Shown in pieces: positions 3,401 through 50,489 of a DNA stretch of 50,489 bases. Under the pieces are notes generated by a model. The model saw only the letters and a program-made list of their open reading frames with translations. It searched no databases and had not been told where the DNA came from. Each line of letters begins with the position of its first letter. Within the stretch, counting starts at the first letter, position 1. Both the position numbers and the translations under genes were made by a program. Source of the DNA: Nitrospirota bacterium (GTDB taxonomy: Bacteria; Nitrospirota; UBA9217); assembly GCA_029858565.1 (NCBI GenBank), contig JAOUEV010000021.1, positions 1 to 50,489 on the forward strand, in the 5' to 3' direction.

Positions 3401-4442
3401 CGACCACGAGGCCCGCGGTGCCCGTTGCCTGCACGTCGCGGATGCGTCCGCCCGTGCCGGTCTCGGCTCCCGGAAAAGGCGCGACACCGGACGGGAAGTT
3501 ATGGGTTTCGGCGGTGAAAATGATATCGTAGGTCCGCCTGGTCTCGCGGAATGCCGAAGGTCTGCCGATCTGCTCGGGAACGATGGTCGTTATCTGATGC
3601 CCCTTGATGGAGCTCGAGTTGTCGCTGAAGGCGATGATGCTGTTGTTCCTGTTCGCTTCCCAGGTGGCTTTCACGATCTTGAAGAGCGTGTCCGGCACTT
3701 CCCTGTTGTCAACGATCAGTTTGCCGCGGAAGAACCAGTGGCGCGAGTGTTCGCTGTTGGACTGGGAAAGGTCAAAACACTCGACGTTGGTCGGGTTCCG
3801 CTTGATGTCCTTCACGAACAGGTTGGTGTAATAGTCCAGGTCCCAGTCGTCCATGCCCAGGCCCATCTCGCGGTTGATCTTCTCCAGCGCCGTCCTTCCC
3901 TCTTCCATAAGCGGTATGGTCTTGACCGGTTCGGGCTTGATGCCGGTCTCGAAGGTCTTGAGCGCTTCGGGATAGGGGCACTCGGTCATCCGATCGTGGA
4001 CCAGGCTGAGGAACGTTTTCTGCTGTTCATTGGTGAGCGATGTTTTTTCCGCGAGTTCGAGACGATACCTGCGGGACCGCTCGATACGCATGATCTTGGC
4101 AAGACCGCAAGCCTGGCACACGGAGACCGCGTTCGCTGACCAGGCGGTCGTGAAGTTCATGCGGGGACCGACCTCAAGAATCGAGTGCGGAGCGCGGAGT
4201 GCGGAGTGCGAAATGAGGAACGATGCTTCGGAGAACTGGCTCGGTTCGAAGGTCTCGGCCAGGAGCCAGCGGAGCAGCCGGGATTCTTCGGCGGTGAGCG
4301 GCGATGTCGAAGCGATGTTGTAGCAGAACTCGGTCGTGATCGCGGCGAGGTCCCGGGAGACCCGCTCCTTCACGGTCTCGAGAAGCGCGGAAGTCTGGAA
4401 CGAGGAGAGTGCCGGTGTGCGAAAGAGATGAAATAGGACCAT
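492..4442 (-). CDS. purL: Phosphoribosylformylglycinamidine synthase, single-chain PurL
   Basis: This large single-chain FGAM synthase (about 1316 aa) catalyses the ATP- and glutamine-dependent conversion of FGAR to FGAM, the fourth step of purine synthesis. It has an N-terminal PurS-like region, two AIR-synthase-like halves (ETHNFPSGVAPFPGAETG, then a central region with GGKDSLSM), and a C-terminal class I glutaminase. The glutaminase nucleophile is the first Cys of GVCNGCQ (about residue 1149), with His and Glu in MPHPER near the end. The reading frame is open to 4538, but the ATG at 4440-4442 (MVLFHLFRTPAL) fits the family N-terminus better. About 95 residues in, an in-frame stretch (SHSALRAPHS) is encoded by the dispersed heptamer repeat. 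The downstream small gene starts 1 nt after the stop. Confidence 0.96.
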   Translation of the reverse strand: MVLFHLFRTPALSSFQTSALLETVKERVSRDLAAITTEFCYNIASTSPLTAEESRLLRWLLAETFEPSQFSEASFLISHSALRAPHSILEVGPRMNFTTAWSANAVSVCQACGLAKIMRIERSRRYRLELAEKTSLTNEQQKTFLSLVHDRMTECPYPEALKTFETGIKPEPVKTIPLMEEGRTALEKINREMGLGMDDWDLDYYTNLFVKDIKRNPTNVECFDLSQSNSEHSRHWFFRGKLIVDNREVPDTLFKIVKATWEANRNNSIIAFSDNSSSIKGHQITTIVPEQIGRPSAFRETRRTYDIIFTAETHNFPSGVAPFPGAETGTGGRIRDVQATGTAGLVVAGTAAYCVGNLRIPGYELPWEDASFLYPSNLATPLQIEIDASSGASDYGNKFGEPMIQGFTRSFGLRLPTGERREWIKPIMFSGGIGQMDNLHRSKSEPDKGMLVVKVGGPAYRIGMGGGAASSMIQGENIAELDFNAVQRGDAEMEQKLNRVIRACSELGDRNPIVSIHDQGAGGNCNVLKEIVHPAGARLEIRKIPVGDETLSVLEIWGAEYQEQNALLLRSNDAQIFEDLCKREKVPVAFVGHITGDGYVVLHDESDGTTPVNLDLAKVLGDMPQKTFKLDRKKDQLPPLTLPKDLTIRSALDRVLRLLSVGSKRFLVNKVDRSVTGLIARQQCAGPLQLTVSDVAVIAQSHFGTTGAACSIGEQPVKELISPAAMARMSVAEALTNIVWAETSGLADIRCSGNWMWAPKLPGEGARLYDAAVAMRDLMISLGMAIDGGKDSLSMAAKVTNPDGTSETVKSPGTLVISAYVTCPDITRTVTPDLKMPGWGKLLFIDLSGGKNRLGASALAQVFGQVGNESPDIDDADLLKRGFNAVQELVKQRLVLAGHDRSDGGLVTTLLEMAFSGNCGLDVNIPAEDAHTSDPLSALFSEEAGLVIEYQPENEAVIFDILKKAGVPYYEIGKSQQEKRIKLCFGWKSVLDEDMLLLRDIWEETSHKLDLFQRNPDCIREERKNSYDRKGPTFVVPFTPKPTDAELLERTGKPKVAIIREEGSNGDREMTSAFYLAGFEPWDVMMTDLLTGRITLDSFRGVVFVGGFSYADVLDSAKGWAASIRFNKQVWEQFERFYNRPDTFSLGVCNGCQLMALLGWVPWRGISDELQPRFIHNRSGRFESRFSTVKIVKSPAIMFSNMENAVLGIWVAHGEGLAYFPDKGMFSKAEAELAPVRYVDDSSNITESYPFNPNGSPAGIAGLCSPDGRHLAMMPHPERAILPWQWGWMPEQMRRAHTVSPWLRMFQNAREWCEKK
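4183..4216. repeat. Heptamer repeat array inside purL
   Basis: On the plus strand about four near-perfect tandem units of GCGGAGY, then a GCGAAAT unit, lie inside the purL reading frame. The same 7-nt unit recurs in intergenic spacers between 32 and 42 kb. Here it is translated on the minus strand as SHSALRAPHS without breaking the frame. Confidence 0.75.
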
Positions 4443-4604
4443 ATTCGTCTGAAAAGATTCCTTCGGGGAAATTGTTCTCCGGCGCGACCCTGGCCCTGTC
4501 GGGCGTTCCACTGTTATCCGGCGACGCGACGGGGGCAAGGCTTCTGCCGCTCAGCAGGGACGGCACTAACGCGCTCAAGCATATCTTGATCCGGCGTCGG
4601 GTAA

Positions 4605-5006
4605 TTACTGCCGGTCGGACAGCGACACGACCTTCTGCTCCGAGGCCTTTTTCTCGCCGGCCATCTCGCATTTGCCGTCGAAGGTCACGCCTTCCTCGAT
4701 GATCAGCTTGGGGGTCTTGATGGTTCCCTCGACCACCGCCGGCGCGAGCAGGTGGACCTTCTGTGCCGCGATGATGTTGCCTGCGACCTTGCCGCTGGAG
4801 ATGAGCGTGCCCACGGAAATATCGCCGTGCAGGCTGGCCTCGTCTCCGGCGATCAGCGTGTCCTTGGAAAGGATCTCGCCCTCGATCTTGCCGTCAACGC
4901 GGATCGTTCCGCCGAAGCTCAGCACGCCCTTGAACTCGGTCCCCTTTCCGAGGAACGCCGTGATCTCGGCATGCTCCGCGGAAACACCTGTTGTCTTCTT
5001 TAACAT
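4605..5006 (-). CDS. Bactofilin family polymer-forming cytoskeletal protein
   Basis: This 133-residue protein has a central domain (about residues 18-115) of short valine/isoleucine/glycine strands such as GTIRVDGKIEGEI and GKVAGNIIA, the right-handed beta-helix pattern of bactofilins (DUF583). The N-terminus is short and uncharged in part, and the C-terminus (GEKKASEQK) is a charged, disordered tail, as is common in the family. Bactofilins form nucleotide-independent filaments that scaffold cell-wall or chromosome-segregation factors. The gene lies 17 nt downstream of parB on the same strand. In myxobacteria, bactofilins position ParABS, so a segregation role is a reasonable inference. The start ATG has a GAGGAG ribosome-binding site. 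Confidence 0.93.
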   Translation of the reverse strand: MLKKTTGVSAEHAEITAFLGKGTEFKGVLSFGGTIRVDGKIEGEILSKDTLIAGDEASLHGDISVGTLISSGKVAGNIIAAQKVHLLAPAVVEGTIKTPKLIIEEGVTFDGKCEMAGEKKASEQKVVSLSDRQ

Positions 5007-5023
5007 GAACTCCTCCTCAATAT

Positions 5024-5875
5024 TTATCCGATCTTCTCCAGGATCCGCTCCAGTTCGTCTGCGGAATAATACTCGATCACGATCCTCCCGCCTTTGGCCT
5101 TTGCCTCGACGCTTACCTTGGTGCCGAGCGACTTTCTGAGCCGCTCTTCGACCGCCTTGTATTCCGATCCCGGGGCAGGTTTCTTTTTCTTTTCATCAGC
5201 CGGATGCTTGAGCTTTGCGGCCAGCGCTTCGGCCTCGCGAACGGACAGTCCTTTCTTCACGATCGCGTTCGCCGCAGCGAGCTGGTCCCGGTGGCGTTCA
5301 AGCGACAGGAGCGCCTTGGCATGTCCCAGAGAGATCGCGCCCGATGCCAGGTGCTGCTTGATCTCCTTGGGCAGGCCGAGGATCCGGAGGAAGTTCGTGA
5401 TCGTGGAGCGTTCCTTGCCGACCCGCTTTGCCAGGTCCTCCTGGGTGAGCTTGAACTCGTCCTGCAGGCGCTTGAACGCCTCGGCCGCTTCCAGGGGATT
5501 CAGGTCCTCGCGCTGGATGTTCTCGATCAGCGCCTGCTCGATCAGCTCACGCTTGCTCGCTTCGCGCACCAGGGCGGGGATGGTCTTCAAACCCGCGAGC
5601 CCTGTCGCCCGCCACCGCCGCTCGCCGGCGATCAGTCCGTAGTTCGATCCGATGCGGTGCACGATGATCGGCTGGATCACGCCCTGCTCTTTTATGGACG
5701 CGGCAAGTTCCTTGAGCTTGTCGTCGTTGAAGGTCTTCCGGGGCTGGAACTCGTTCGGAACGATCTTGTCCAGCTCGATCTCCATGATCCCGAGGGATTT
5801 CTTTTCTTTTTCCCCGAGCACCGAAAGGTCCGGGATCAGGGCGCCAAGCCCTTTACCGAGCGCCTGCTTTTGCAT
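5024..5875 (-). CDS. parB: Chromosome partitioning protein ParB
   Basis: ParB (283 aa) is a CTP-dependent clamp that loads at parS and spreads on DNA to organise the origin for ParA-driven segregation. Visible features are the ParA-contacting N-terminal KGLGALI (residues 8-14), the CTP-binding GERRWRA box (84-90), the [14 protein letters not shown] segment (118-131), a helix-turn-helix (about 143-166) and a C-terminal dimerisation region. The start overlaps the parA end by 23 nt, giving translational coupling. Two copies of its expected target site lie within 2 kb upstream, at 6710 and 7850. It is of usual length with no missing motifs. Confidence 0.97.
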
Positions 5876-6629
5876 GGCTCAATACCTCTTTTGCAAGATC
5901 AAGATAGCTCTGGGCGCCGCGCGACCGGATATCGTACAGCAGCACCGGCTTGCCGTGGCTCGGCGCTTCGCTCAAGGTGACGTTCCGGTTGATCACGGTC
6001 TTGTACACCTTGCTGCCGAAATACTTTCGCACTTCTTCCGCCACCTGTTCGGCAAGATTGTTCCTGCCGTCGAACATGGTGAGCAGCACACCCTCGACCT
6101 GGAGCCCGGGATTCAGGTCCTGTTTGATCAGCTTCACCGTGTTCATGAGCGCGGACAATCCTTCGAGCGCGTAGAACTCACACTGCACCGGTATCAGCAC
6201 GCCGTCAGCCGCGGTCAAGGCATTCACGGTCAGGAGCCCGAGCGACGGCGGACAGTCAATGAAGATATAGTCATACTGGTCGCGGAAGGACTCGATGGCT
6301 TTTTTCAAAACCCGCTCGCGGGCGATCATCTGGATCAGTTCGACCTCAACTCCGACCAGATCGATCTTTGCCGGGACCACGTCGAGCCAGGTGAAATGGG
6401 TGGTGTGCTTGATCTCCCCAAGGGACCGTTTGCCCGTAAAAAGGTCGTAGGTGCTGCCCGTTGCCTGGATCTTGTCGATCCCCATGCCGCTTGACGAGTT
6501 TCCCTGGGGATCGGCGTCGATCAGCAGCACCTTCTTCTCAGCAGCCGCGAGCGAGGCAGCTATGTTCACGGCAGTGGTCGTTTTCCCGACCCCGCCCTTC
6601 TGGTTTGCTATGGCAATGACCTTGCCCAT
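5853..6629 (-). CDS. parA: Chromosome partitioning ATPase ParA (Soj)
   Basis: ParA (258 aa) is a deviant Walker ATPase that binds DNA non-specifically and moves ParB-parS complexes. The deviant Walker A motif KGGVGKTT is at residues 11-18, followed by DADPQGN and the Walker B-like [15 protein letters not shown] ribosome-binding site lies 4 nt before the ATG. The parS site at 6710-6725 sits about 80 nt upstream of this start, so ParB bound there could affect parAB transcription (inference). Length and motifs are those of chromosomal Soj proteins rather than of plasmid ParA with an N-terminal helix-turn-helix. Confidence 0.97.
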
Positions 6630-14178: not shown

Positions 14179-15933
14179 ATGAATAAATGGATACGCTGGT
14201 GGGGACTTATCGCTTTTGCCGCTTTTTGCGGTCTGATCATCATCTTCTGGCTCTTTTTCGTTGACGGCTTTGTTCGCAACATGGTCGAGCGTGCAGGCTC
14301 GGCCGCGGCAGGCGCTGAAGTGAACGTATCAAGCGCCAGATTGACCATCTCGCCGCTTGGCATTGCACTTTCGGGCATCCAGGTAACGGACCCCAAGGTC
14401 CCCTCCACGAATTCCCTTGAGATCGGTCGTGTCGCTTTCTCCCTGGACGGCCTTAATCTGCTCCGTCGCAAGATCATCATCCAGGAGATGTCCGCAGATG
14501 GGCTCCTTTTTGGAACGGCCCGAAAAAAACCCGGATTCGTCATTCTCCCGGACACCCCGGCCGTTCAGGAGAAAAAAACCTCCTCCTTCGCGCTTCCCTC
14601 CTTCGCCATACCCGATGTGAAACAGATTCTTCAGACCGAGGTCTTCGAATCGGTTAAGCTTATTGACGACGCTAACGCAGATGTTCAGAAGACAGCGGCT
14701 TCCTGGCAAAAGCGGATGAGTGAACTGCCCAGCAAATCCTCCCTGGACTCCTACCGTACCCGGCTTGACAAGCTGAAGATATCATCCAGGTCCAGCCTGA
14801 AGGACCTTACATCCGCATCCCTTGATGCAAAGAAGATCAAAGAAGACCTGGACCGGGATCTTGAGCGTCTGAAAAGTTCAAAGACCGCCCTGAGCGCTGA
14901 CCTTGCCTCACTGAAGGAACTTGTTGCAAAGGCAGAACGTGCTCCGCTGGAGGACATACGCCGGATCAGGGACAAGTACAGTATTTCGCCATCAGGTCTT
15001 CAGAACATGAGCCAGGCCCTCTTTGGATCAAAGGTCGTTTCCTGGTTCGATAGCGGACTTGTTTGGTACAACCGCATCACTCCGCTGATCGCTGGATCCG
15101 GGGAGGGCAAGGGAACGGTAAAAGTTTCTAAACCGCTTCGCGGCAAGGGCGTTGATGTGCGGTTTCGCGAGCATGCTCCCTTGCCAGACTTCCTCATCCG
15201 TAACGTCAACACCTCTATGAAGCCCGAGGCCGGTTCCTTTGCCGGAACGATCAGGAACATCACTCCTGACCAGGACATCATCGGCATTCCTCTTACGTTC
15301 AAGTTCGACGGCTCCGGTATGAAAGACCTTCGCACCATAACGCTCAGCGGCGGTTTTGATCATATCCTGTCCGCATCTTACAAGGATACGATACAGGTGG
15401 AGGTGCTCGGATATCGCGCCGGAGATATGGTGCTTTCCGGGAACAAGGAACTCCCGATCACACTTCAGGATGGACTGATGGATTTAGAGTTCAAAGGCCT
15501 TCGCACATCCAAAGGACTGAGCGCCACGCTGTCAGCCACCTTCAGGTCCGTCCGGATCAACACCGGCAATCAAGGTAACAGCGGAATGATCCTCTCGTCG
15601 CTCAGGAGCGCCCTTTCCCGGGTCACGGCCTTTAAGCTCTCTGCGGACATCAGCGGCGAACCTGGCAATTATGATGTGAAGGTCTCCTCTGATCTCGACA
15701 GGGTGTTCAAGGATGCCGTCGGGAGGATGGTTCAGGAGCAGAGCGTAAAACTGGAGAAGGATCTTAAAGCAGCGGTTCAGGCAAAGACCGAAGGAAAGGT
15801 GAAAGACCTGAAAGCAAGTTTAGGCGGGCTGAACACCGCTGGCGCGAACATCGACGCTGTACAAAACGAGCTGAACACGCTTCTGCAGGAGGCAAAACAA
15901 AAGGCCGAGGGGAAGGTTAAATTGTCTTTGTAG
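14179..15933 (+). CDS. TIGR03545-type protein, AsmA-like membrane-anchored
   Basis: This 584-residue protein has one N-terminal membrane helix (about residues 10-28). An envelope-facing body follows, with an AsmA-like start (VNVSSARLTISPLGIALSGI) and a long charged coiled-coil (about 185-260). Ser/Thr/Gly-rich beta repeats come next, and a second helical region rich in Lys and Glu ends the protein. The pairing with the preceding TIGR03546 protein supports the TIGR03545 assignment. AsmA-like proteins are often involved in lipid transport between membranes; that role is an analogy only. The stop lies 2 nt from the convergent aminotransferase stop. Confidence 0.82.
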   Translation: MNKWIRWWGLIAFAAFCGLIIIFWLFFVDGFVRNMVERAGSAAAGAEVNVSSARLTISPLGIALSGIQVTDPKVPSTNSLEIGRVAFSLDGLNLLRRKIIIQEMSADGLLFGTARKKPGFVILPDTPAVQEKKTSSFALPSFAIPDVKQILQTEVFESVKLIDDANADVQKTAASWQKRMSELPSKSSLDSYRTRLDKLKISSRSSLKDLTSASLDAKKIKEDLDRDLERLKSSKTALSADLASLKELVAKAERAPLEDIRRIRDKYSISPSGLQNMSQALFGSKVVSWFDSGLVWYNRITPLIAGSGEGKGTVKVSKPLRGKGVDVRFREHAPLPDFLIRNVNTSMKPEAGSFAGTIRNITPDQDIIGIPLTFKFDGSGMKDLRTITLSGGFDHILSASYKDTIQVEVLGYRAGDMVLSGNKELPITLQDGLMDLEFKGLRTSKGLSATLSATFRSVRINTGNQGNSGMILSSLRSALSRVTAFKLSADISGEPGNYDVKVSSDLDRVFKDAVGRMVQEQSVKLEKDLKAAVQAKTEGKVKDLKASLGGLNTAGANIDAVQNELNTLLQEAKQKAEGKVKLSL

Positions 15934-15935
15934 CA

Positions 15936-17084
15936 CTATGGTTCCCTGTCGAGTATCCTGTCCAGCTCTTTGAAACAGAAAACAATCTCTTCCTTCGTGT
16001 TATAGAAGTGCGGTGAAATCCTGACCCCACCGGCACGAACGTTCACCATGATGCCTTTCTCGCGCAGCGCATTGCGAAGCGCGTCGGGGTCAAAAGGTCC
16101 GCAAACGGTCACATTGCCTCCGCGCGCACTCCGCTCACGGGGCGTCTTGATCTCAAAACCTCTCCTCTCTGCCTCTTCGATGATGACATCTCCGAGTCCA
16201 AGGACCTGTTCCTCAATATTTTCTATCCCTACTTCGTTCAGCAGCTCTATGGCTGCTCCAAGGCCGATGATCCCCATGACATTCAATGATCCTTCTTCGA
16301 ACCTTTGCGCGTCTTTCTTCAGATCAAACTGCGGTCGCTCAAATTCGAATTGCTGCTGAACGCTTTTCCAGCCAACAAGGGCCGGTTCGATCACTTCCGT
16401 CAGCCCTCTTCTGCAAAAGAATATTCCGATCCCCTCCGGACCGAGCAGCCACTTGTGCGCATCAGCCGCCAGAAAATCGATATTGAACGCATCAACGTCC
16501 ATAGGTATCACCCCAAGACTTTGTATCGCATCTACACAGAACAACATTCCCTTTTTTCTGCACAAATCGCCTGTGCGCTTAAGATCCATCCTGAACCCGT
16601 TCGTGAACTGGACCGAGCTGATGGACAAGAGACGTGTTCTTGCGTCAACCTGTTGTTCAATATCATCCAGCATGATGCGTCCTTCTCTTGAAGGTATCGT
16701 TCTTACTTCAACTCCTTTTCTCCTGAGATGCTCCCAGGGATACCGGTTGGAAGGGAATTCCTTTTCATATATGATCACATTGTCGCCCTGGTTCCACGCC
16801 ATTCCCTCTGCAACAATAGACAAGCCATGCGATGTGCTTCTGACAAAAGCCACCTCATCGGTCTCCGCTCGCAGCAAGTCTGCACATTTTTTCCTGATAT
16901 CAACGATCTTCCGGAACCATTGTGGATAGAGAAAAGCGCCGTTCTCCGCAGATTCCGACAAGAATCCGCATATCGCCTTTTCTACCCTCCTGGATATTGG
17001 CGCCACTCCCGCATGATCAAGATAAACAAACCGTCCTGTTATGGGGAACTCATTTCGGTATTTGTCTACGTCGTCCTTTTCCAT
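15936..17084 (-). CDS. Class V (NifS-like) PLP-dependent aminotransferase
   Basis: This 382-residue PLP enzyme has VDAIQSLG (Asp185 binding the pyridine nitrogen), AADAHKWLLGPEGIG (Schiff-base Lys211) and an early RSTSHG phosphate-binding block. It belongs to the cysteine desulfurase/isopenicillin-N-epimerase-like branch of fold I class V enzymes. The active-site Cys loop expected in true IscS/NifS is not evident, so it may be a SufS-like desulfurase, a selenocysteine-lyase-like enzyme or another lyase. The start overlaps the upstream GIY-YIG gene by 35 nt. Sulfur-carrier genes lie 2-5 kb away, which makes a sulfur role plausible but unproven. Confidence 0.85.
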   Translation of the reverse strand: MEKDDVDKYRNEFPITGRFVYLDHAGVAPISRRVEKAICGFLSESAENGAFLYPQWFRKIVDIRKKCADLLRAETDEVAFVRSTSHGLSIVAEGMAWNQGDNVIIYEKEFPSNRYPWEHLRRKGVEVRTIPSREGRIMLDDIEQQVDARTRLLSISSVQFTNGFRMDLKRTGDLCRKKGMLFCVDAIQSLGVIPMDVDAFNIDFLAADAHKWLLGPEGIGIFFCRRGLTEVIEPALVGWKSVQQQFEFERPQFDLKKDAQRFEEGSLNVMGIIGLGAAIELLNEVGIENIEEQVLGLGDVIIEEAERRGFEIKTPRERSARGGNVTVCGPFDPDALRNALREKGIMVNVRAGGVRISPHFYNTKEEIVFCFKELDRILDREP

Positions 17085-42459: not shown

Positions 42460-43821
42460 CTAATCCGCAGCCAATCCGAATTTTTTCAGCTTTCTCCAGA
42501 GCGACACACGGTCAATTCCCAGGATCTGTGAGGCCAATGTCCTGTTCCCGGCGACCTCGTTCAGCACCCATCGTATGTAGGCGAGCTCCTGCTCCTCCAG
42601 CGAGGGGATTCGTCCCTCTTTCTTGCGGAATGTCTTGATGTTCAGTTCCTTCAGGTCATCGGGAAGATGACCGAGCTCCACGGTCTTGCTGTTCGAGAGC
42701 GCGACCCCGCGCTCCACGATATTCTCCAGCTCCCGGACGTTGCCGGGGAAGTCATAGTTCATGAGCAGGCTGATCACGTCCTCGTTGATCTCGGTGACCG
42801 GCCTCTTCATGAGCGTAGCGTACTTCCTGAGGAAATAATAGGAGAGCAGGGGGATATCATCCTTGCGCTCGGCCAGCGGCGGGATGCGGAGCGATACAAC
42901 GTTCAGCCGGAAGTACAGGTCCTGGCGGAAAGCGCCGCTCTTAACGGTCTCCTGGATGTCCCGGTTCGTCGCGGCGACGAATCGCACATTGACCTTTACG
43001 GCCTCGGTGCCGCCAAGGCGCAGGATCTCCCGCTCCTGGATGACCCGGAGAAGCTTCACCTGCATGGAGGTCGGCATCTCGGTTATCTCATCAAGGAACA
43101 GCGTGCCTTCCGACGCCATCTCGATCAGGCCCTTTTTCGCGACAGCAGCGCCGGTAAATGCGCCTTTCTCATGGCCGAACAGCTCATTGGTCAGCAATTC
43201 CTCGTTAAAGGCGCCGCAGTTGATGGCGAAAAAAGGCCCTGCGGCGCGGCGGCTGTGGAGGTGGATGAACCGGGCGAACAACTCTTTGCCTGTCCCGCTC
43301 TCTCCGGAGATCAGCACATTCGTGTCTACCGGCGCAACTTGTCGCGCCACATCGAGCAGCCTTTGCATCCCCGGGTCCTGCGTGATGATCTTTACCTTGC
43401 CCTGGTAGGACTCGAGCTGTTCGCGCAGGTTGCGGTTCTCCTTCTTCAGGGCTACTTTGTGAACTGCTTCGGCGACCACCTTGCGGACATCATCAAGCTT
43501 GAAGGGCTTGGCAATATAATAGAAAGCGCCGTGCTTCATCGCCTCGACCGCCGACTCCAGCGTGGCAAAGCCCGTGATCATGATGACTTCGGTGTCCGGA
43601 TGGGCATCGCGGCATCGCTTGAGGACCTGGAATCCATCCACCTTTTCCATTTTCAGGTCGGTCAATACCACGTCGAAGGACATTTCTTCAAGCAGATTGA
43701 TCGCGTTCTGACCGCTCTGGGTCGCCGTGACCTCGTATCCTTCTTTCTTCATGACGTGTTCGAGATTCTTGAGCGCCACTCGCTCATCGTCGACAATGAG
43801 TATCTTAGCGTGAGTATTCAT
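42460..43821 (-). CDS. NtrC-family sigma-54 response regulator
   Basis: This 453-residue protein has a receiver domain (about 5-120) with DD11-12, phospho-acceptor Asp55, Thr83 and Lys105. Its sigma-54-interaction AAA+ domain (about 145-380) has GESGTGKE (173-180) and GAFTGA (220-225), the sigma-54 contact. It ends with a Fis-type helix-turn-helix (ASQILGIDRVSLWRKLKKFG). It is last in the minus-strand operon, 12 nt after the kinase gene, so it is the likely output. A sigma-54 promoter at 47740 drives the divergent operon and is the best candidate target. The target is inferred. Confidence 0.96.
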   Translation of the reverse strand: MNTHAKILIVDDERVALKNLEHVMKKEGYEVTATQSGQNAINLLEEMSFDVVLTDLKMEKVDGFQVLKRCRDAHPDTEVIMITGFATLESAVEAMKHGAFYYIAKPFKLDDVRKVVAEAVHKVALKKENRNLREQLESYQGKVKIITQDPGMQRLLDVARQVAPVDTNVLISGESGTGKELFARFIHLHSRRAAGPFFAINCGAFNEELLTNELFGHEKGAFTGAAVAKKGLIEMASEGTLFLDEITEMPTSMQVKLLRVIQEREILRLGGTEAVKVNVRFVAATNRDIQETVKSGAFRQDLYFRLNVVSLRIPPLAERKDDIPLLSYYFLRKYATLMKRPVTEINEDVISLLMNYDFPGNVRELENIVERGVALSNSKTVELGHLPDDLKELNIKTFRKKEGRIPSLEEQELAYIRWVLNEVAGNRTLASQILGIDRVSLWRKLKKFGLAAD

Positions 43822-43833
43822 TTCAATCCCTTC

Positions 43834-45339
43834 TCACTTCATCGGAAGCCTGATGAGGAACACCGTGCCCTTGCCTGCTTCGCTGTCCACGGCGATGCAC
43901 CCGTCGTGCTCATCGATGATCTCATGGACAATGAACAAACCAAGGCCCGATCCCCGACCAACGTCCTTGGTCGTGAAGAAGGGATCAAAAACCTTGGTAA
44001 GGATGTCCTCAGGGATGCCGCTGCCGGTATCGCGCACTTCGATATCCACCGTGTCATCCTCGAGCGTGCACTTGCCGTGATATTTGAGATAGTTGTAGAT
44101 ACCGCCGTCGTCTCCTACCTTGTCAATAGCGCGGTGAAAGCGGGCCGCGATTGTGATGGTCCCTTCCCCGGGGATCGCCTCGGCCGCGTTCTTCAGCAGG
44201 TTCAGGAAGACCTGCTGGATCCGCTGTTTGTCCGCGAGTATCTCTACATCTTCGGCGATATTGACCTGGATGGAGGCTTTCGCGGGTATCTGTCCCTTGA
44301 TGAAGCGGATGGTCTCGTTGATCAGTCCGCGGAGCGGGATCCGCTGTTTCTTGAACTCCCTGTCCCGGGAGAATTCGAGCAGCGAGCGGACGATGTTCCG
44401 CGCACGGTCGGTCTGCTCGTTGATCTGGTCGACCAGCTCCCGTTTGAATGCCGGATCCGCGCTGTCAAGCTCTTCCGCCAGGATCTGGCCTGACGAGGAT
44501 ATGTTGGAAAGAGGGTTGTTCAGCTCATGGGCCACTCCCGAGAGAAGCGTTCCCAGGGAAGCGAGCTTCTCCGACTGTACCAGGTGGCGCTGGCGGAGCT
44601 CAAGCTCGCGCAGCATCTTGTTGAAAGCGCGGGTCAGGGAAAGCACCTCGCGGTCCCGGGAATCGATCGGGATGTTCTCGAAGGTGCCTTCAGCGATCAC
44701 TTCCATGTTCCGCTCCATCAGCTTCAGCGGTTTCACGACCATGCGTTCAAGCACCTGGCCGATCACGATGACCAGTGCGATCAGGACCAGCAGGGAGATG
44801 AGCAGGAATCGCTGCGAGGCGGCAAGCAGCGCCTGGATGCTCGACCGTTCGTTCCGGGAGATCTCTTCGGCCACGGTCACGATATCCTTGCCGGTCTTGC
44901 GGATCTTTCCCTCCAGCCGGACCTTGAGCGCCTGATCCTCCGGCGTAGGTTTGGTTCGCTGACGGCGGATGAGCTTCTCGTACCGGTCCATCAGCTCCTG
45001 ATACTGGCGGAGGTCCTTGCGGAGCAAAACGATGACCTCGGGCGAGGCGAGGGCCGCGAAGCCGGCGCGACTGACGTCGAGGATCTCACCGGCCCGGAGG
45101 GCATAGCGCAGGTTTTCCGCGTAGTCCGACCGCTGCTCAAAGAGGAAATAATTCTTCTCGAACCGCCGGATCTCCAGGGTGGTATCGAAGAACTCGGAGA
45201 TCGTCTCGCCGACCATGATCTTCTTTTCAAGATAGCGAAGCTCCAGGAACGTGAAGGCCGAGAGACCGATGATCATGAGCACCACGGCGTAGTAACCAAG
45301 GCGGATCTTCTGGCGGATGCTGTGCTGGTATTTGATCAT
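43834..45339 (-). CDS. Membrane sensor histidine kinase
   Basis: This 501-residue kinase has two membrane helices (about residues 16-34 and 178-198) bracketing a helical, largely charged periplasmic region of about 140 residues. A HAMP domain follows (about 199-250), then HisKA with the phospho-acceptor His271 in GVAHELNNPLSNI. The HATPase domain has NLLKNAAEAI, DTGSGIP and GRGSGLGLFIV. The periplasmic part is rich in Arg/Glu/Leu (helical-bundle-like) with no known ligand pocket. It overlaps the Lon-hybrid gene by 4 nt (ATGA), so the two are tightly coupled. Confidence 0.96.
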   Translation of the reverse strand: MIKYQHSIRQKIRLGYYAVVLMIIGLSAFTFLELRYLEKKIMVGETISEFFDTTLEIRRFEKNYFLFEQRSDYAENLRYALRAGEILDVSRAGFAALASPEVIVLLRKDLRQYQELMDRYEKLIRRQRTKPTPEDQALKVRLEGKIRKTGKDIVTVAEEISRNERSSIQALLAASQRFLLISLLVLIALVIVIGQVLERMVVKPLKLMERNMEVIAEGTFENIPIDSRDREVLSLTRAFNKMLRELELRQRHLVQSEKLASLGTLLSGVAHELNNPLSNISSSGQILAEELDSADPAFKRELVDQINEQTDRARNIVRSLLEFSRDREFKKQRIPLRGLINETIRFIKGQIPAKASIQVNIAEDVEILADKQRIQQVFLNLLKNAAEAIPGEGTITIAARFHRAIDKVGDDGGIYNYLKYHGKCTLEDDTVDIEVRDTGSGIPEDILTKVFDPFFTTKDVGRGSGLGLFIVHEIIDEHDGCIAVDSEAGKGTVFLIRLPMK

Positions 45340-47339
45340 TGCTGCACCAGGACCTGCGGAACGATCTCGGCGACCGTGTCGGCCAGGATGATCGTAATGT
45401 CCGACCGGACGGCGGCGGGAAGCTCGTCCACGTCGCTCCTGTTCTTGAGCGGCAGCACGATGGTGCGGACCCCGGCCCGTCGGGCGGCAAGCACTTTTTC
45501 CCGCACACCTGCAACCGGCAGCAGTCTGCCGGTGAGCGTGATCTCGCCGGAAAGGGCGACATCCCTGCGGGCCGGACGGCTGGTCAGGAGCGACAGGATC
45601 GCGACCGCGATCGTGATGCCCGCCGAGGGTCCGTCCTTCTGGATAGCGCCGGAGGGAACATGAATATGGATGTCCTGGTTCTCGAAGAAGTCCTCGGGGA
45701 TGGCAAAGGTCCGGGCGTTGCTCCTGATATAGGAAAGGGCTGCCTGGGCCGATTCGCGCATCACGTCGCCGAGCGATCCCGTGATGATCAGCTCCTTCTT
45801 CCCTTTCATGGCAACCGCTTCGACAAAGATGATATCGCCTCCGGCTTCGGTCCGGACAAGACCGGTCGCGACGCCGATCCGGTCCGTTTCCTCGACAACG
45901 TCAACGTGATATTTCTTCCTGCCCAGGAACCGCTCAAGCTCCGCCGGCGTGACGGTCACGGATTTTCGGCCGCCGGAGCCGAGCGACTCCTTTGCGAGCT
46001 TTCTGCAGACCATGGCGATCTGGCGCTCCAGGCCGCGTATGCCGGCCTCCCGGGTGTGTTCCCGGATGACGTGCTCCAGGGCTGCCTGGGTAAAGACGAC
46101 CTGGTCCGGTGACAGGCCTTTTTCACGGACCTGTTTCGGCACCAGGAACCGCGAAGCGATCTCGAGCTTATCCTCGAGCGCGTATCCGGAGAACTCGATG
46201 ACCTCCATGCGGTCGCGCAGCGGACCGGGCATGGCCTCAACGACATTCGCCGTGACAATGAACATCACGCCGGACAGGTCAAAGGGAACATCGAGGTAAT
46301 GGTCAGTGAAGGCCCGGTTCTGCTCCGGGTCCAGGACCTCCAGCAGGGCCGACGCCGGGTCTCCCTTGAAGTCCGAACCGATCTTGTCCAGCTCATCGAG
46401 CATCAGAACGGGATTCGCAGAACCCACCCGCCGGATCTCTTCAATGATCCTGCCGGGCCGCGCGCCGGTGTATGTCCGGCGATGGCCGCGGATGTCCGCT
46501 TCGTCCTTCACCCCGCCCAGGGAGATGCGGGCGAAGTTCCTTCCCAGGGCAAGCGCTATGGACCTGCCAAGAGAGGTCTTTCCCGTGCCCGGAGGCCCGG
46601 CAAAGCAGAGCACGGTGCCTCGCGAGCCCGTTGCGAGCGATCGTTTTTCAAGGGCTTGCCGGACGGTTTCGCGCACTTCATCGAGCTTATAGGGCTTGGT
46701 GATGTAATGGAAGGCTCCCCGCTTCATCGCATCGATCGCTGACTGGACCGTGGCGAATCCGGTAACAATGATCACCCGGGTCTCGGGAAAGCGCTTCTTC
46801 ACCGATTCAAGAAGGTCCATGCCGCTTACCGGGCCCATGCGCAGGTCCGTCAGGACAACGTCGAACTCACCGGTCTCGAGAGCCTGGAGCCCTGATTCCG
46901 CGTCAGCGGCGGTTACGACCTCATAGTGCTCCCTGGTCAGGATATGAGAAAGGTTCTTTCGAGCGATCTCCTCATCGTCAATGACAAGGATGCGCGCCTG
47001 CCTGTTCATCCGCAGCACCTTGACCGCGAGGTGCTCCAGCACGCGCTCCTTGATCAGCTCGAGACCGAAATGGTGTTCATTCAGCACGCGCTCTGCGCGA
47101 ACGATGTCAAGGTTGTCCTCGGTGCGGTGGTTCCAGGGAAGGGAGAGCAGGTAGTCGATGTAGGTGAGGCCGATGGAGAACTCGGCGGACGACGGTCCGA
47201 TCTTCGACAGGACCTCGAGCTCCTGTACGGCAACAGGAGCGACCACAGGGGGCAGATGGGCATTTTCGATCCTCTGGCGCAGCTCTGCGAGGACCTGATC
47301 CTGTTCCTTGTCGGTATTTTTTTTATTAAAGAATCCCAT
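45336..47339 (-). CDS. Lon-type ATP-dependent protease with inserted receiver domain (REC-Lon hybrid)
   Basis: This 667-residue protein (numbering from the ATG at 47337-47339) is a Lon protease rearranged in two ways. It lacks the N-terminal substrate-recognition (LAN) domain, keeping only the short helical end with IDYLLSLPWN and NEHHFGLELIKERVLEHLAV. A full receiver domain (about 115-234) then follows, with DD121-122, phospho-acceptor Asp165, Thr193 and Lys215, inserted just before the AAA+ module. The AAA+ has GPPGTGKT (248-255), LMLDELDK and DPASALLEVLDPEQN. The C-terminal protease has the Ser572-Lys615 dyad (KDGPSAG and VREKV). Both motor and protease look active. The N-terminal frame from TTG 47381 is rejected. 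Confidence 0.93.
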   Translation of the reverse strand: MGFFNKKNTDKEQDQVLAELRQRIENAHLPPVVAPVAVQELEVLSKIGPSSAEFSIGLTYIDYLLSLPWNHRTEDNLDIVRAERVLNEHHFGLELIKERVLEHLAVKVLRMNRQARILVIDDEEIARKNLSHILTREHYEVVTAADAESGLQALETGEFDVVLTDLRMGPVSGMDLLESVKKRFPETRVIIVTGFATVQSAIDAMKRGAFHYITKPYKLDEVRETVRQALEKRSLATGSRGTVLCFAGPPGTGKTSLGRSIALALGRNFARISLGGVKDEADIRGHRRTYTGARPGRIIEEIRRVGSANPVLMLDELDKIGSDFKGDPASALLEVLDPEQNRAFTDHYLDVPFDLSGVMFIVTANVVEAMPGPLRDRMEVIEFSGYALEDKLEIASRFLVPKQVREKGLSPDQVVFTQAALEHVIREHTREAGIRGLERQIAMVCRKLAKESLGSGGRKSVTVTPAELERFLGRKKYHVDVVEETDRIGVATGLVRTEAGGDIIFVEAVAMKGKKELIITGSLGDVMRESAQAALSYIRSNARTFAIPEDFFENQDIHIHVPSGAIQKDGPSAGITIAVAILSLLTSRPARRDVALSGEITLTGRLLPVAGVREKVLAARRAGVRTIVLPLKNRSDVDELPAAVRSDITIILADTVAEIVPQVLVQQ

Positions 47340-47562
47340 GTCCAATGATCCAGGAAAACCGGTTTTCGCGCGAAGCCGCAAAGCCGCTAAAAAAGATTAA
47401 AGGAACAAGCCGTAGCAGCGGAAAAACAAGGAACATGTTCTGAGTACTGTATCCATTCATCTTAGCGAAGGGTCTGCCCAAGACATTTGTCCTGTTTTTC
47501 TTTGCGGCTTTGGGCGAGACAGAAAATGAATTTAGATAGCACTTAACAACGACCCGGCATCA

Positions 47563-47739: not shown

Positions 47740-47756
47740 TTGGCACGATGGTTGTA
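47740..47756 (+). promoter_or_regulatory. Sigma-54 promoter (-24/-12) of the Usp/TauE operon
   Basis: TGGCACG-ATGG-TTGTA closely matches the sigma-54 consensus TGGCACG-N4-TTGCA (GG and TTG present with correct spacing; one mismatch in the -12). It is about 40 nt before the first gene. Confidence 0.82.
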
Positions 47757-47795
47757 ATAGTAATAATAGAAAAACAATGAAAGGAGGGTTGACCT

Positions 47796-47966
47796 ATGAA
47801 GACCCTGTTAAAGAAAATGGAGACGATGTTCGCAGCATCAGCATTTGCCGAGGCCGGAGAACATGAGACCGCGCGCCAGATCCTGAAGGACGCTGAGCAG
47901 CGGAAGAACGATCGTCCGTCGCTTCAGGCGCGTCCATCCACCAGGCCGTCGCTGCGGGCGAACTAG
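47796..47966 (+). CDS. Small protein, first gene of sigma-54 operon (56 aa)
   Basis: This 56-codon gene has a strong AAGGAGGG ribosome-binding site. It encodes a helix with KKMETMFAASAFAEAGEHETARQI, followed by an Arg/Ser/Pro-rich basic tail (PSLQARPSTRPSLRAN). Residues about 5-30 resemble the N-terminus of the next protein (KQIEDSLAAVSFAEEGQQETAATL), so the two share a motif. It is the first gene after the sigma-54 promoter, 21 nt before the Usp-like gene. I recognise no named family. A coiled-coil regulator or partner is possible but not shown. Confidence 0.8.
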   Translation: MKTLLKKMETMFAASAFAEAGEHETARQILKDAEQRKNDRPSLQARPSTRPSLRAN

Positions 47967-47987
47967 AGCGCTGGAGCAGGTCGAACC

Positions 47988-48485
47988 ATGGACAGCCAGA
48001 AGCTCAAGAAGATCATGAAGCAGATCGAGGATTCCCTCGCAGCGGTCTCCTTTGCCGAGGAAGGCCAGCAGGAGACGGCGGCTACCCTGTTCCGGAGGGA
48101 GCGGAGACTGCTCGTCGCGGTGCGGGAAGGACATGTCGATCCAAAGACCCTGAAGTACGGCCTGAATACCGCTGTCAGGATCGGATCGCAGGTCGACATC
48201 CTCTATGTCACCGCCGAGGGCGGCGGCCACACGCGGATCGACAAGGACCTCGAGGAGTTCGATCGCGAACTTTCGGCAGCTGCCATTCCTCATCGCCTGG
48301 TCAGGAAGAGCGGCTGTCTGAAGCAGCAGATCATCGACTACACGAACAAGGAGCATGAGGTGCTCTTCGTGGTTGTCGAATCCCCCCGCAGTCTGGATGC
48401 GGACTGCTCGGGCAAGGACACCGCGCTGACAGAGTTGTGGAAAAAGCTGCGGTGTCCGCTTGTGGTGGTGTCTGAAGCGCAGTAA
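47988..48485 (+). CDS. Usp-like protein with N-terminal FAEEG motif
   Basis: This 165-residue protein has an N-terminal helix (residues 1-35, QIEDSLAAVSFAEEGQQETA) matching the 56-aa protein upstream. A Rossmann-like alpha/beta domain follows (RLLVAVREGHVDPKTLKYGLNTAVRIGSQVDILYV; then HEVLFVVVES and LRCPLVVVSE). It resembles the universal stress protein fold but lacks the canonical G-x2-G-x9-G[ST] ATP loop. It is in the sigma-54 operon, 21 nt after the 56-aa gene. Function is unknown; the shared motif suggests the two are linked. Confidence 0.75.
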   Translation: MDSQKLKKIMKQIEDSLAAVSFAEEGQQETAATLFRRERRLLVAVREGHVDPKTLKYGLNTAVRIGSQVDILYVTAEGGGHTRIDKDLEEFDRELSAAAIPHRLVRKSGCLKQQIIDYTNKEHEVLFVVVESPRSLDADCSGKDTALTELWKKLRCPLVVVSEAQ

Positions 48486-48572: not shown

Positions 48573-48824
48573 ATGGCAGCAACAAGCAGCAAGAAAAAAC
48601 CGGTCACCGCGCTGGTGATCACCGGTATCGTGTCGATCGTGATGTACGGTCTGCTCCTGACCAAGCAGGAACTGATCAACAGCACCTTCGGCAAGGGCGG
48701 ATGGTTCGCATTCCTTCCGATCGTGACGGCATTCCTGTTCTCCTTCGTGCACGGAGCGTTCACCGGCCACTTCTGGACCGTGCTCGGCATCGAAGCGGCA
48801 AAAAAGAAGAAGGAGGTAAAGTAA
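48573..48824 (+). CDS. Small two-helix membrane protein
   Basis: This 83-residue protein has a basic N-terminus (TSSKKKPVTA) and two hydrophobic segments (about residues 12-29 and 44-66, the latter FLPIVTAFLFSFVHGAF). A Lys-rich C-terminus (AAKKKKEVK) follows, placing both ends in the cytoplasm. AAGGAGG precedes the ATG. It ends 1 nt before the TauE-family permease gene, so it may be an accessory subunit, but no family is recognised. Confidence 0.8.
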   Translation: MAATSSKKKPVTALVITGIVSIVMYGLLLTKQELINSTFGKGGWFAFLPIVTAFLFSFVHGAFTGHFWTVLGIEAAKKKKEVK

Positions 48825-48825
48825 G

Positions 48826-49908
48826 ATGCACGATATTGCGACGAATTTCATCAATCTTGATCTCATCACCATGCTGTACCTCTTCGGTGTCGGTTTCGTT
48901 GGCGGCCTGGTCTCCGGTTTCATCGGTTCGGGCGGCGCTTTTGTGCTTACCCCGGGCATGATGAGCCTGGGCGTTCCCGGTCTCATGGCAGTTGCGAGCA
49001 ATATGTGCCACAAGTTCCCCAAGGCGCTGGTCGGCGCGGTGAAGCGCGCCAAGTACGGCCAGGTGGACGTGAAGCTCGGGATCATTCTCGGCATCTCGGC
49101 TGAAGCGGGTGTGCTCTACGGCGCGCATATCCAGGAGAGCATCAAGAAGGCCTTTGGCGATGCCGGTTCTAACCTTTATGTCAGCGCCGCGTTCGTGGTG
49201 ATCCTTGCCACTGTGGGCGGGTTCGTTCTGCGCGACGCATGGAAGACCCATAAGTCCGGAACCGCACATGAAGAGGAAAAGGCAGGCAAGCTGGCCAAAT
49301 GGGTGCAGTCCATCAACATTCCCGGCACTATGGTCTACTTCAAGAGCCTGAACGCCAAGGTCTCGGTGCTCTTTACCATCCCCCTCGGGTTCGCAACCGG
49401 CATGCTGGCCGCGACGATCGCCGTGGGCGGATTCGTGGGCGTTCCGTCCATGATCTATGTTCTCGGCGCGCCGAGCATCATGGCGTCGGCAACAGAGCTG
49501 GTGATCGCCTTTGTGATGGGCGTGGGCGGATCGTTCAAGTACGCGCTTTCGGGCCTGGTGGACATCAGGCTGGCCATGCTGATCCTCGCGGGCTCGCTCT
49601 TCGGCGTTCAGCTTGGCGCGATCGGCACGACCTACGTGAAACCCTTCATGATCAAGATGGTGATGGGGGTGATCATGGTGATCGTGCTCTTCAGCCGTGC
49701 GCTCATGATCCCGGTCTATATGTCCCAGCTCGGCTTGATGGACAAGATGGGCGACATGACCGTGAAGGTGCTGAAGAACACCAGTTTTGCTATAATGATC
49801 GCAGCACTGGCGATCGGAGCGTTCATCATCATTAAGGCCTTTGTGGAAGGCCGCAGGGAAGAGAAGCTCCGCCTGGCGTCAGAAGCGCTGGAACATGGGA
49901 AAATATAA
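48826..49908 (+). CDS. TauE/SafE-family membrane permease
   Basis: This 360-residue integral membrane protein has about eight hydrophobic segments and the TauE/SafE hallmarks GGLVSGFIGSGGAFVLTPGM near the N-terminus and GMLAATIAVGGFVGVPSMIYVLG near the second half. TauE/SafE proteins are proposed exporters of sulfite, sulfoacetate or related anions. A soluble loop of about 50 residues separates the halves (about 135-175). The family is broad, so the substrate is uncertain. It lies in the sigma-54 operon and overlaps the following Usp gene by 14 nt. Confidence 0.88.
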   Translation: MHDIATNFINLDLITMLYLFGVGFVGGLVSGFIGSGGAFVLTPGMMSLGVPGLMAVASNMCHKFPKALVGAVKRAKYGQVDVKLGIILGISAEAGVLYGAHIQESIKKAFGDAGSNLYVSAAFVVILATVGGFVLRDAWKTHKSGTAHEEEKAGKLAKWVQSINIPGTMVYFKSLNAKVSVLFTIPLGFATGMLAATIAVGGFVGVPSMIYVLGAPSIMASATELVIAFVMGVGGSFKYALSGLVDIRLAMLILAGSLFGVQLGAIGTTYVKPFMIKMVMGVIMVIVLFSRALMIPVYMSQLGLMDKMGDMTVKVLKNTSFAIMIAALAIGAFIIIKAFVEGRREEKLRLASEALEHGKI

Positions 49909-50489
49909 GAAAATCCTTATAGCTGTCGATGGTTCTGAATCAAGCCGGAACGCGCTCCTGCAGGCGTTCCGGCTTGCTGTTGAAGAAAAGTGCTGGATCA
50001 CGGTCACGTCGGTCGTCCCGCCGGTCACCGGCGACCTGGACCTTACCGGCGTGTCGGACGTTCGCGCTTCCCTTGCCAAACCCTGCGAAGATGCCCTGAC
50101 CGAAGCACGCAGTCTCGCCGAGCAGGAGTGCATCCTGATCAAGACAGTGCGCGAGGAAGGCGAGACCTATGAGCGGATCGTGGACCTGGCAGATGCCGAG
50201 AACGCGGACATCATCGTCATGGGACGCAGGGGACTGCGCAGAATGGCGCGCGTTCTGGTCGGCAGTGTGACCGCGCGGGTGATCGGCCACACGCAGCGTG
50301 ATGTTCTTGTGGTCCCCGCGGGCTCGATCCTGGGCTGGAAGAAGATCGTGGTTGCCACGGACGGATCCCGGTTCAGCGCGAAGGCGACGGACAAGGCCAT
50401 CAGCTTTGCCCAGGCCTACGGCGGATCGCTCGCGGTCCTGTCGGTGGTCGATGTGCCGCCGGAGCTGTATGCCGAGGCGCCGCAGGCGG
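49895..50489 (+). CDS. Tandem universal stress protein, 3'-truncated by window end
   Basis: The frame opens at ATG 49895, overlapping the permease end by 14 nt, and is open for 198 codons to the window edge. A full Usp domain comes first (KKILIAVDGSES, then MGRRGLRRMARVLVGSV, which fits the ATP-binding G-x2-G-x9-GS motif). A second one begins at about residue 146 (KKIVVATDGSRFSAKA). Tandem Usp proteins bind ATP or AMP and act in stress or energy signalling. It is part of the sigma-54 operon. The C-terminus is not in the window. Confidence 0.93.
   Translation, partial: MGKYKKILIAVDGSESSRNALLQAFRLAVEEKCWITVTSVVPPVTGDLDLTGVSDVRASLAKPCEDALTEARSLAEQECILIKTVREEGETYERIVDLADAENADIIVMGRRGLRRMARVLVGSVTARVIGHTQRDVLVVPAGSILGWKKIVVATDGSRFSAKATDKAISFAQAYGGSLAVLSVVDVPPELYAEAPQA

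Follow-up and report, generated by a model that had tools for sequence, protein, structure and literature searches.

A portable TPR-like helical module on candidate regulators at TauE/SafE transporter loci of sulfur-metabolising bacteria

Introduction

Tetratricopeptide repeats (TPRs) are helix-turn-helix units of 34 residues, recognised by the spacing of a small residue at position 8, an aromatic residue at position 11, G15, Y17, A20, and F24. Another kind of small module is the encapsulation peptide of bacterial microcompartments, a short helix that tags otherwise unrelated members of a single system. Universal stress proteins (Usps) bind nucleotide through the motif GxxG(8-10)G[ST]. Deletion of one Usp, TeaD, is reported to raise ectoine uptake and to leave teaA mRNA unchanged (PMC2964678), and FimV is reported to have three TPRs predicted to mediate protein interaction (PMC7033161).

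Transporters of the TauE/SafE (TSUP) family are described as abundant in sulfate reducers, with roles that could not be predicted (PMC5840216). In Desulfovibrio vulgaris, nine operons of TSUP or PSE transporters are reported to be sigma-54 dependent, with the substrate given as unknown (PMC4641369). A tauE homolog of Archaeoglobus is mentioned as having earlier been proposed to be a sulfite importer (PMC3949148). Here we describe a TSUP operon of a Nitrospirota bacterium, found in a stretch of 50,489 nucleotides (the window; contig JAOUEV010000021.1), and a helical module carried by two of its proteins.

Results

Two adjacent proteins of the window share a module

The plus strand of the operon encodes, in order, a small protein of 56 residues, a 165-residue protein, an 83-residue membrane protein (TM83), a TauE/SafE transporter, and an ordinary Usp, while a REC-Lon protein, a histidine kinase, and an NtrC-type regulator are encoded on the minus strand (Table 1). 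The assignment of the transporter is well above the PF01925 cut-off (119 bits vs 32.6). A sequence-only reading of the window had noticed related sequences at the start of the two adjacent genes, and this was borne out. Residues 1-31 of the 56-aa protein align without gaps to residues 6-36 of the 165-aa protein with a BLOSUM62 local score of 65, compared with 24.6 +/- 4.4 for shuffles of the small protein (highest 59; none of 2000 reached 65), and the second-best called gene of the window scored 39 against the small protein. The strings that had been quoted are indeed similar (11 of 24 residues identical), but their length is 24 residues and not 25 (residues 6-29 of the small protein and 11-34 of the larger). 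The module common to both proteins is about 33 residues long and follows KK[LF]ED.M.A[VI][AT]FAEAGE[FH]ETAREIL.

Neither protein matched a Pfam or NCBIfam family above cut-off (weak matches only) or a PHROGs family at E < 0.1, and no paper describing the helical module was found by text search of the open-licence literature. The motif is a portable family, unnamed in the libraries searched.

Table 1. Features of the window operon and of the genes on the opposite strand
Feature	Position	Strand	Evidence
NtrC-type sigma-54 response regulator	42460..43821	-	PF00158 E 7.7e-70, PF00072
Histidine kinase (HAMP, HisKA, HATPase)	43834..45339	-	Pfam
REC-Lon: receiver domain, then Lon AAA+ and protease domains	45336..47339	-	ORF opens at 47381, MGFFNKK taken as start
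Sigma-54-type promoter TGGCACGATGGTTGTA, 55 nt before start codon of small gene	47741..47756	+	9/10 of TGGCAC-N5-TTGC
Ribosome-binding site AAAGGAGGG	47780..47788	+	read from sequence
56-aa solo-motif protein: module and basic tail ending LRAN	47796..47966	+	
Motif copy 1, residues 1-32 of 56-aa protein	47796..47891	+	profile A2, E 9.9e-17
165-aa protein: motif and degenerate Usp-like domain lacking the nucleotide-binding motif	47988..48485	+	
Motif copy 2, residues 6-38 of 165-aa protein	48003..48101	+	profile A2, E 4.7e-14; modelled helices 3-24 and 28-36
TM83, 83-aa membrane protein, two hydrophobic segments	48573..48824	+	
TauE/SafE (TSUP) transporter	48826..49908	+	PF01925 E 3.4e-34
Ordinary Usp, truncated by window end, MGKYKK taken as start	49895..50488	+	PF00582 E 4.1e-40

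The motif is widespread and found on unrelated carriers

The profile search that had been suggested found homologs well beyond the pair, contrary to the lack of homologs that had been named as a refutation of the motif. Among 61 Nitrospirota genomes (that of the window and 60 relatives), the small protein as query had matches in 26 at E <= 0.1, and profile A2 found the motif in 24 at E <= 0.001. In a Desulfobacterota-centred sample the motif was present in 11 of 99 genomes. A scan of named genome contigs gave at least 594 pattern matches, and at least 238 stretches were confirmed. Nitrospirota were commonest among the scan records, followed by deltaproteobacterial lineages; the motif was also found in Actinobacteriota (L090, L101, L104, L107, L132, L160), Gammaproteobacteria (L134, L136), and a Deferribacteres bin (L145). 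From the confirmed stretches, the 80 loci that best matched one query were kept. Six of these contained only motif proteins identical to those of other loci, and counts are therefore given for 74 best-match loci. Iterated profiles collected at least 206 motif ORFs; 204 were distinct with a best E < 1e-4, 154 of them from the 80 loci and 50 from other loci.

The 204 ORFs were grouped by BLAST with the motif masked. In 60 the motif precedes a Usp-like domain, and in 31 it is inserted about 40 residues into one; a third Usp-like group has six members. Eleven are receiver domains with a C-terminal motif, eight are homologs of TM83 with an N-terminal motif, and three are PPDK-like proteins with the motif inside. 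The remaining 85 are nearly all solo or tandem motif proteins. Pfam searches of examples found Response_reg in L106 and L155, PPDK_N and PEP-utilizers in L122, and weak Usp matches in several others. Simple paralogy is disfavoured by the variety of domains that carry the motif and of the places where it sits in them.

The PPDK-like proteins lie at 3590-6256 (minus strand) of L122, 12649-14818 of L112, and 14696-16036 (minus strand) of L098, the last two placed with L122 by BLAST only, and each locus has a TauE gene. The motif-bearing TM83 homologs come from eight deltaproteobacterial or proteobacterial contigs; in Desulfobulbaceae-like contigs, TM83 with the N-terminal motif stands beside TauE (L108 2430-2780, L109 8550-8897, L149 8544-8891, and five others). 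Around 7098-8099 of L155, L158, and L161 there are adjacent pairs of receiver-type proteins in which one member appears degenerate and both have a C-terminal motif (weak in L161). A basic C-terminal tail, as in the window (47892-47966), is seen in many of the solo proteins, and 19 of 74 have LRA, LRV, or LRT near the C-terminus.

The module resembles a TPR hairpin and the tagged Usps are degenerate

The 165-aa protein was modelled with AlphaFold2 from 41 sequences (mean pLDDT 79.6). In the motif region the model has two helices with a short turn between them, at a pLDDT of 53-65 per block of ten residues; in the Usp fold that follows, most blocks are above 80 and many above 90. Over 214 motif segments, the conserved columns are A-3 (95%), F0 (97%), A+1 (99%), E+2 (98%), G+4 (90%), E+5 (84%), A+9 (93%), and R+10 (64%). 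The place of Y17 in the TPR signature is taken by F (43%), H (25%), or Y (4%), and that of F24 by L (50%) or M (26%). The spacing of A-3, F0, G+4, and A+9 equals that of the TPR signature. In Pfam, TPR families matched few of 18 motif members, with a best E of 0.0019 (0.032 for the 56-aa protein), and all fell below cut-off (TPR_14, 15.3 bits vs a gathering cut-off of 23.5). The best match in a profile search of the PDB was a TPR stretch of NprR (E 0.75). For the tandem protein of L122, modelled with only moderate confidence (pTM 0.43), one copy superposes on TPR3 of FimV at 0.6 A over 32 residues with 28% identity; this match has a VIA Z of 2.5, below several unrelated helical proteins, and a Foldseek E of about 4, and Foldseek found no match to the tandem model at E <= 0.001. 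Signature spacing and models support a TPR-like helical hairpin, which we do not call a TPR. The motif had earlier been read, tentatively, as a common docking helix. The model replaces the single helix with a helix-turn-helix, and the docking part of that reading is suggested by the recurrence of the motif, at one kind of locus, on several carriers that are unrelated.

The description of the 165-aa protein as Usp-like agrees with its fold but not with the Pfam cut-off. No Pfam family, PF00582 included, was matched above cut-off, and 22 of its 41 homologs had a Usp match at E <= 0.01. Of the 19 hits that a structure search with the model gave at E <= 0.001, almost all are labelled as universal stress proteins. 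The best PDB match was TeaD (3hgm; E 3.6e-6, TM-scores about 0.5, rmsd 7.8). The motif GxxG(8-10)G[ST] was absent from all 97 tagged Usps (60 N-terminal, 31 internal, six of the third group) and present in 75 of 88 untagged Usp neighbors. The tagged Usps have thus lost the nucleotide-binding motif.

Motif genes lie beside TauE and two-component regulators

Neighbors up to 6 kb from a motif gene were counted with our own HMMs, so that motif-bearing Usp, receiver, and TM83 proteins are included where the HMMs match. TauE was found in 60 of the 74 best-match loci, receiver domains in 59, histidine kinases in 55, Usps in 54, sigma-54 regulators in 48, and Lon C-domains in 17; TM83 was found in 19, an undercount with genes called as the longest ORFs of at least 90 aa. 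TauE was not found within 6 kb in 14 best-match loci. Some of these are short contigs, and others are 12-14 kb (L106, L118, L126, L127) or 16 kb (L121) long. In the genome of the window, all four motif proteins are at three TauE loci. This genome has about eight TauE genes (nine matches, of which two are probably fragments of a single gene). One locus of this genome is of a different type, with a solo motif protein, a GntR-UTRA regulator, and a 415-aa TauE (L081, C86, 11972-15072).

Motif operons are preceded by sigma-54-type promoters

Promoters were scored as the count of consensus letters of TGGCAC-N5-TTGC, with GG required, within 300 nt upstream. Groups of solo genes and Usp genes with an N-terminal motif were taken as motif operons (n=94), and 788 further genes from these loci, operon-internal genes among them, served as controls. 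A score of at least 8 was reached by 66 of the 94 motif operons vs 55 of the 788 controls, at least 9 of 10 by 35 vs four, and 10 of 10 by 15 vs none. Of the Usp genes with an internal motif, 19 of 31 scored 9 or more. The score of 9 was reached by one of 11 receiver-type genes, none of eight TM83 genes, and none of six genes of the third Usp group, and these may lie inside operons.

Genomes with the motif are enriched in dsrA

The dsrA gene was called by TIGR02064 over its cut-off. Among the Nitrospirota relatives, dsrA was found in 18 of 24 motif-positive vs eight of 37 motif-negative genomes (Fisher p 4.6e-5), and in the Desulfobacterota-centred sample in 11 of 11 vs 36 of 88 (Fisher p 1.4e-4); these p-values, which carry no correction for kinship, overstate independence, because 14 of the 24 motif-positive relatives belong to one family. 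From the contig scan, 20 motif genomes were chosen. Nineteen were searched, with the twentieth (G068) counted in the Desulfobacterota-centred sample, and 18 of the 19 have dsrA; 18 of the 19 are not labelled Nitrospirota, and the only one so labelled (G076) has a partial dsrA below cut-off. Six motif-positive relatives have no dsrA over cut-off (G004, G005, G013, G015, G053, G059), and in G059 the gene is in two pieces. Conversely, 36 genomes of the Desulfobacterota-centred sample and eight relatives have dsrA without the motif.

Discussion

We consider it somewhat probable that the motif is a portable docking tag on regulators of sigma-54-controlled TauE/SafE operons, in bacteria with a dissimilatory sulfur metabolism, reductive or oxidative. 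The histidine kinase and the NtrC-type regulator of the window probably act on the sigma-54 promoter. Once switched on, this promoter would drive all five plus-strand genes, from that of the solo-tag protein to that of the ordinary Usp. Tags on soluble regulators, and in some lineages on the small membrane subunit, would gather these proteins at the transporter by docking. The tagged pseudo-Usp might then regulate transport, by analogy with TeaD and TeaABC. The transporter substrate may be a sulfur oxyanion.

Another use of the same hairpin would be oligomerisation, in which hairpins pair into helical bundles and form homo- or hetero-oligomers with no separate receptor. Small residues recur at constant distances in the motif (A-3, A+1, G+4, A+9), which would suit such packing, as would the tandem copies in some proteins. 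So would a slight co-variation within loci, where solo and Usp motifs have a similarity of 0.473 vs 0.450 when shuffled (50 pairs; five of 2000 shuffles as high). However, the tandem model is of only moderate confidence, and the nearly invariant E+2, together with the conserved E+5 and R+10, suggests a specific surface. As the docking reading permits motif-motif contacts, the two overlap, and we regard oligomerisation by itself as rather unlikely. Far less credible is that the Usp-like gene was partly duplicated at its 5' end and left the small gene behind as a functionless copy. The two genes are adjacent and similar, but many genomes of several phyla have solo or tandem proteins, and where motif genes of the solo and Usp types form a group, a solo or tandem gene leads it in 82 of 97 cases. 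Upstream sigma-54 sites are enriched at such groups, and the motif is also found on unrelated carriers. We regard this origin as very improbable.

The REC-Lon protein raises a further alternative, already put forward as speculation in the sequence-only reading, in which the motif is a degron. A phosphorylation-controlled REC-Lon encoded at the same locus would then bind this degron and degrade the regulators that bear it. Relatives were searched with the N-terminal part and receiver domain of REC-Lon, a match having to cover both, and the strongest matches of up to 45 candidates scored per genome were listed. REC-Lon was found in at least 12 of the 61 relatives, all of them motif-positive, and among the matches listed in none of the 37 motif-negative ones (p 1.6e-6); the match in G010 is partial, at a contig end. 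In the best-match loci with a Lon C-domain gene near the motif, a receiver domain is in the same ORF in 16 of 17, some deltaproteobacterial contigs among them. The Lon N-terminal substrate domain was unmatched by Pfam in the REC-Lon of the window, which also speaks for this reading. A text search of the open-licence literature found no paper evidently on a receiver-Lon fusion. Against a degron, REC-Lon was not found in the other 12 of the 24 motif-positive relatives among the matches listed (up to 45 candidates per genome), ten of the 12 listed REC-Lon genomes are from the family of the window (two from another), TauE is a much commoner neighbor than the Lon C-domain, and the motif is also embedded in larger proteins and present on a protein of the membrane. 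A degron is improbable in our view, but REC-Lon may be a protease acting on the motif system.

Returning to the docking tag, a broader and more tentative proposal, which we hold to be slightly less likely than not, is that a one-repeat TPR-like tag defines a modular TSUP signalling assembly of dissimilatory sulfur metabolism in several phyla, to which receiver, pseudo-Usp, PPDK-like, membrane subunit, and solo adaptor proteins are recruited. If this is true, further components of the assembly could be predicted from the tag by itself. The tag marks a subset of TSUP transporters and their candidate regulators, and so gives a handle on which of these transporters belong to sulfur respiration. 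It also makes the assembly testable with small proteins.

Comparison with known systems

The promoter enrichment at motif operons agrees with the sigma-54 control described for TSUP operons of Desulfovibrio vulgaris (PMC4641369). Another likeness is to TPR3 of FimV (PDB 4mbq, 4mal), one helix-turn-helix unit with a length and signature spacing similar to those of the predicted motif hairpin. Unlike TPRs, the motif stays below the Pfam TPR cut-offs and, in the 56-aa protein, has no NCBIfam match; its carriers are Usps, receiver domains, a membrane protein, and PPDK-like proteins. The tagged Usp of the window resembles TeaD, the Usp of the TRAP transporter TeaABC, in being encoded beside a transporter. 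It differs in having no nucleotide-binding motif and in its neighbor, which is a TSUP transporter whereas that of TeaD is a TRAP transporter; TeaD presumably has no tag. Like the encapsulation peptides of microcompartments, the motif is found on unrelated proteins of one system. No shell protein stood out among the genes listed, and an encapsulation peptide is a single helix, whereas the motif is a predicted hairpin.
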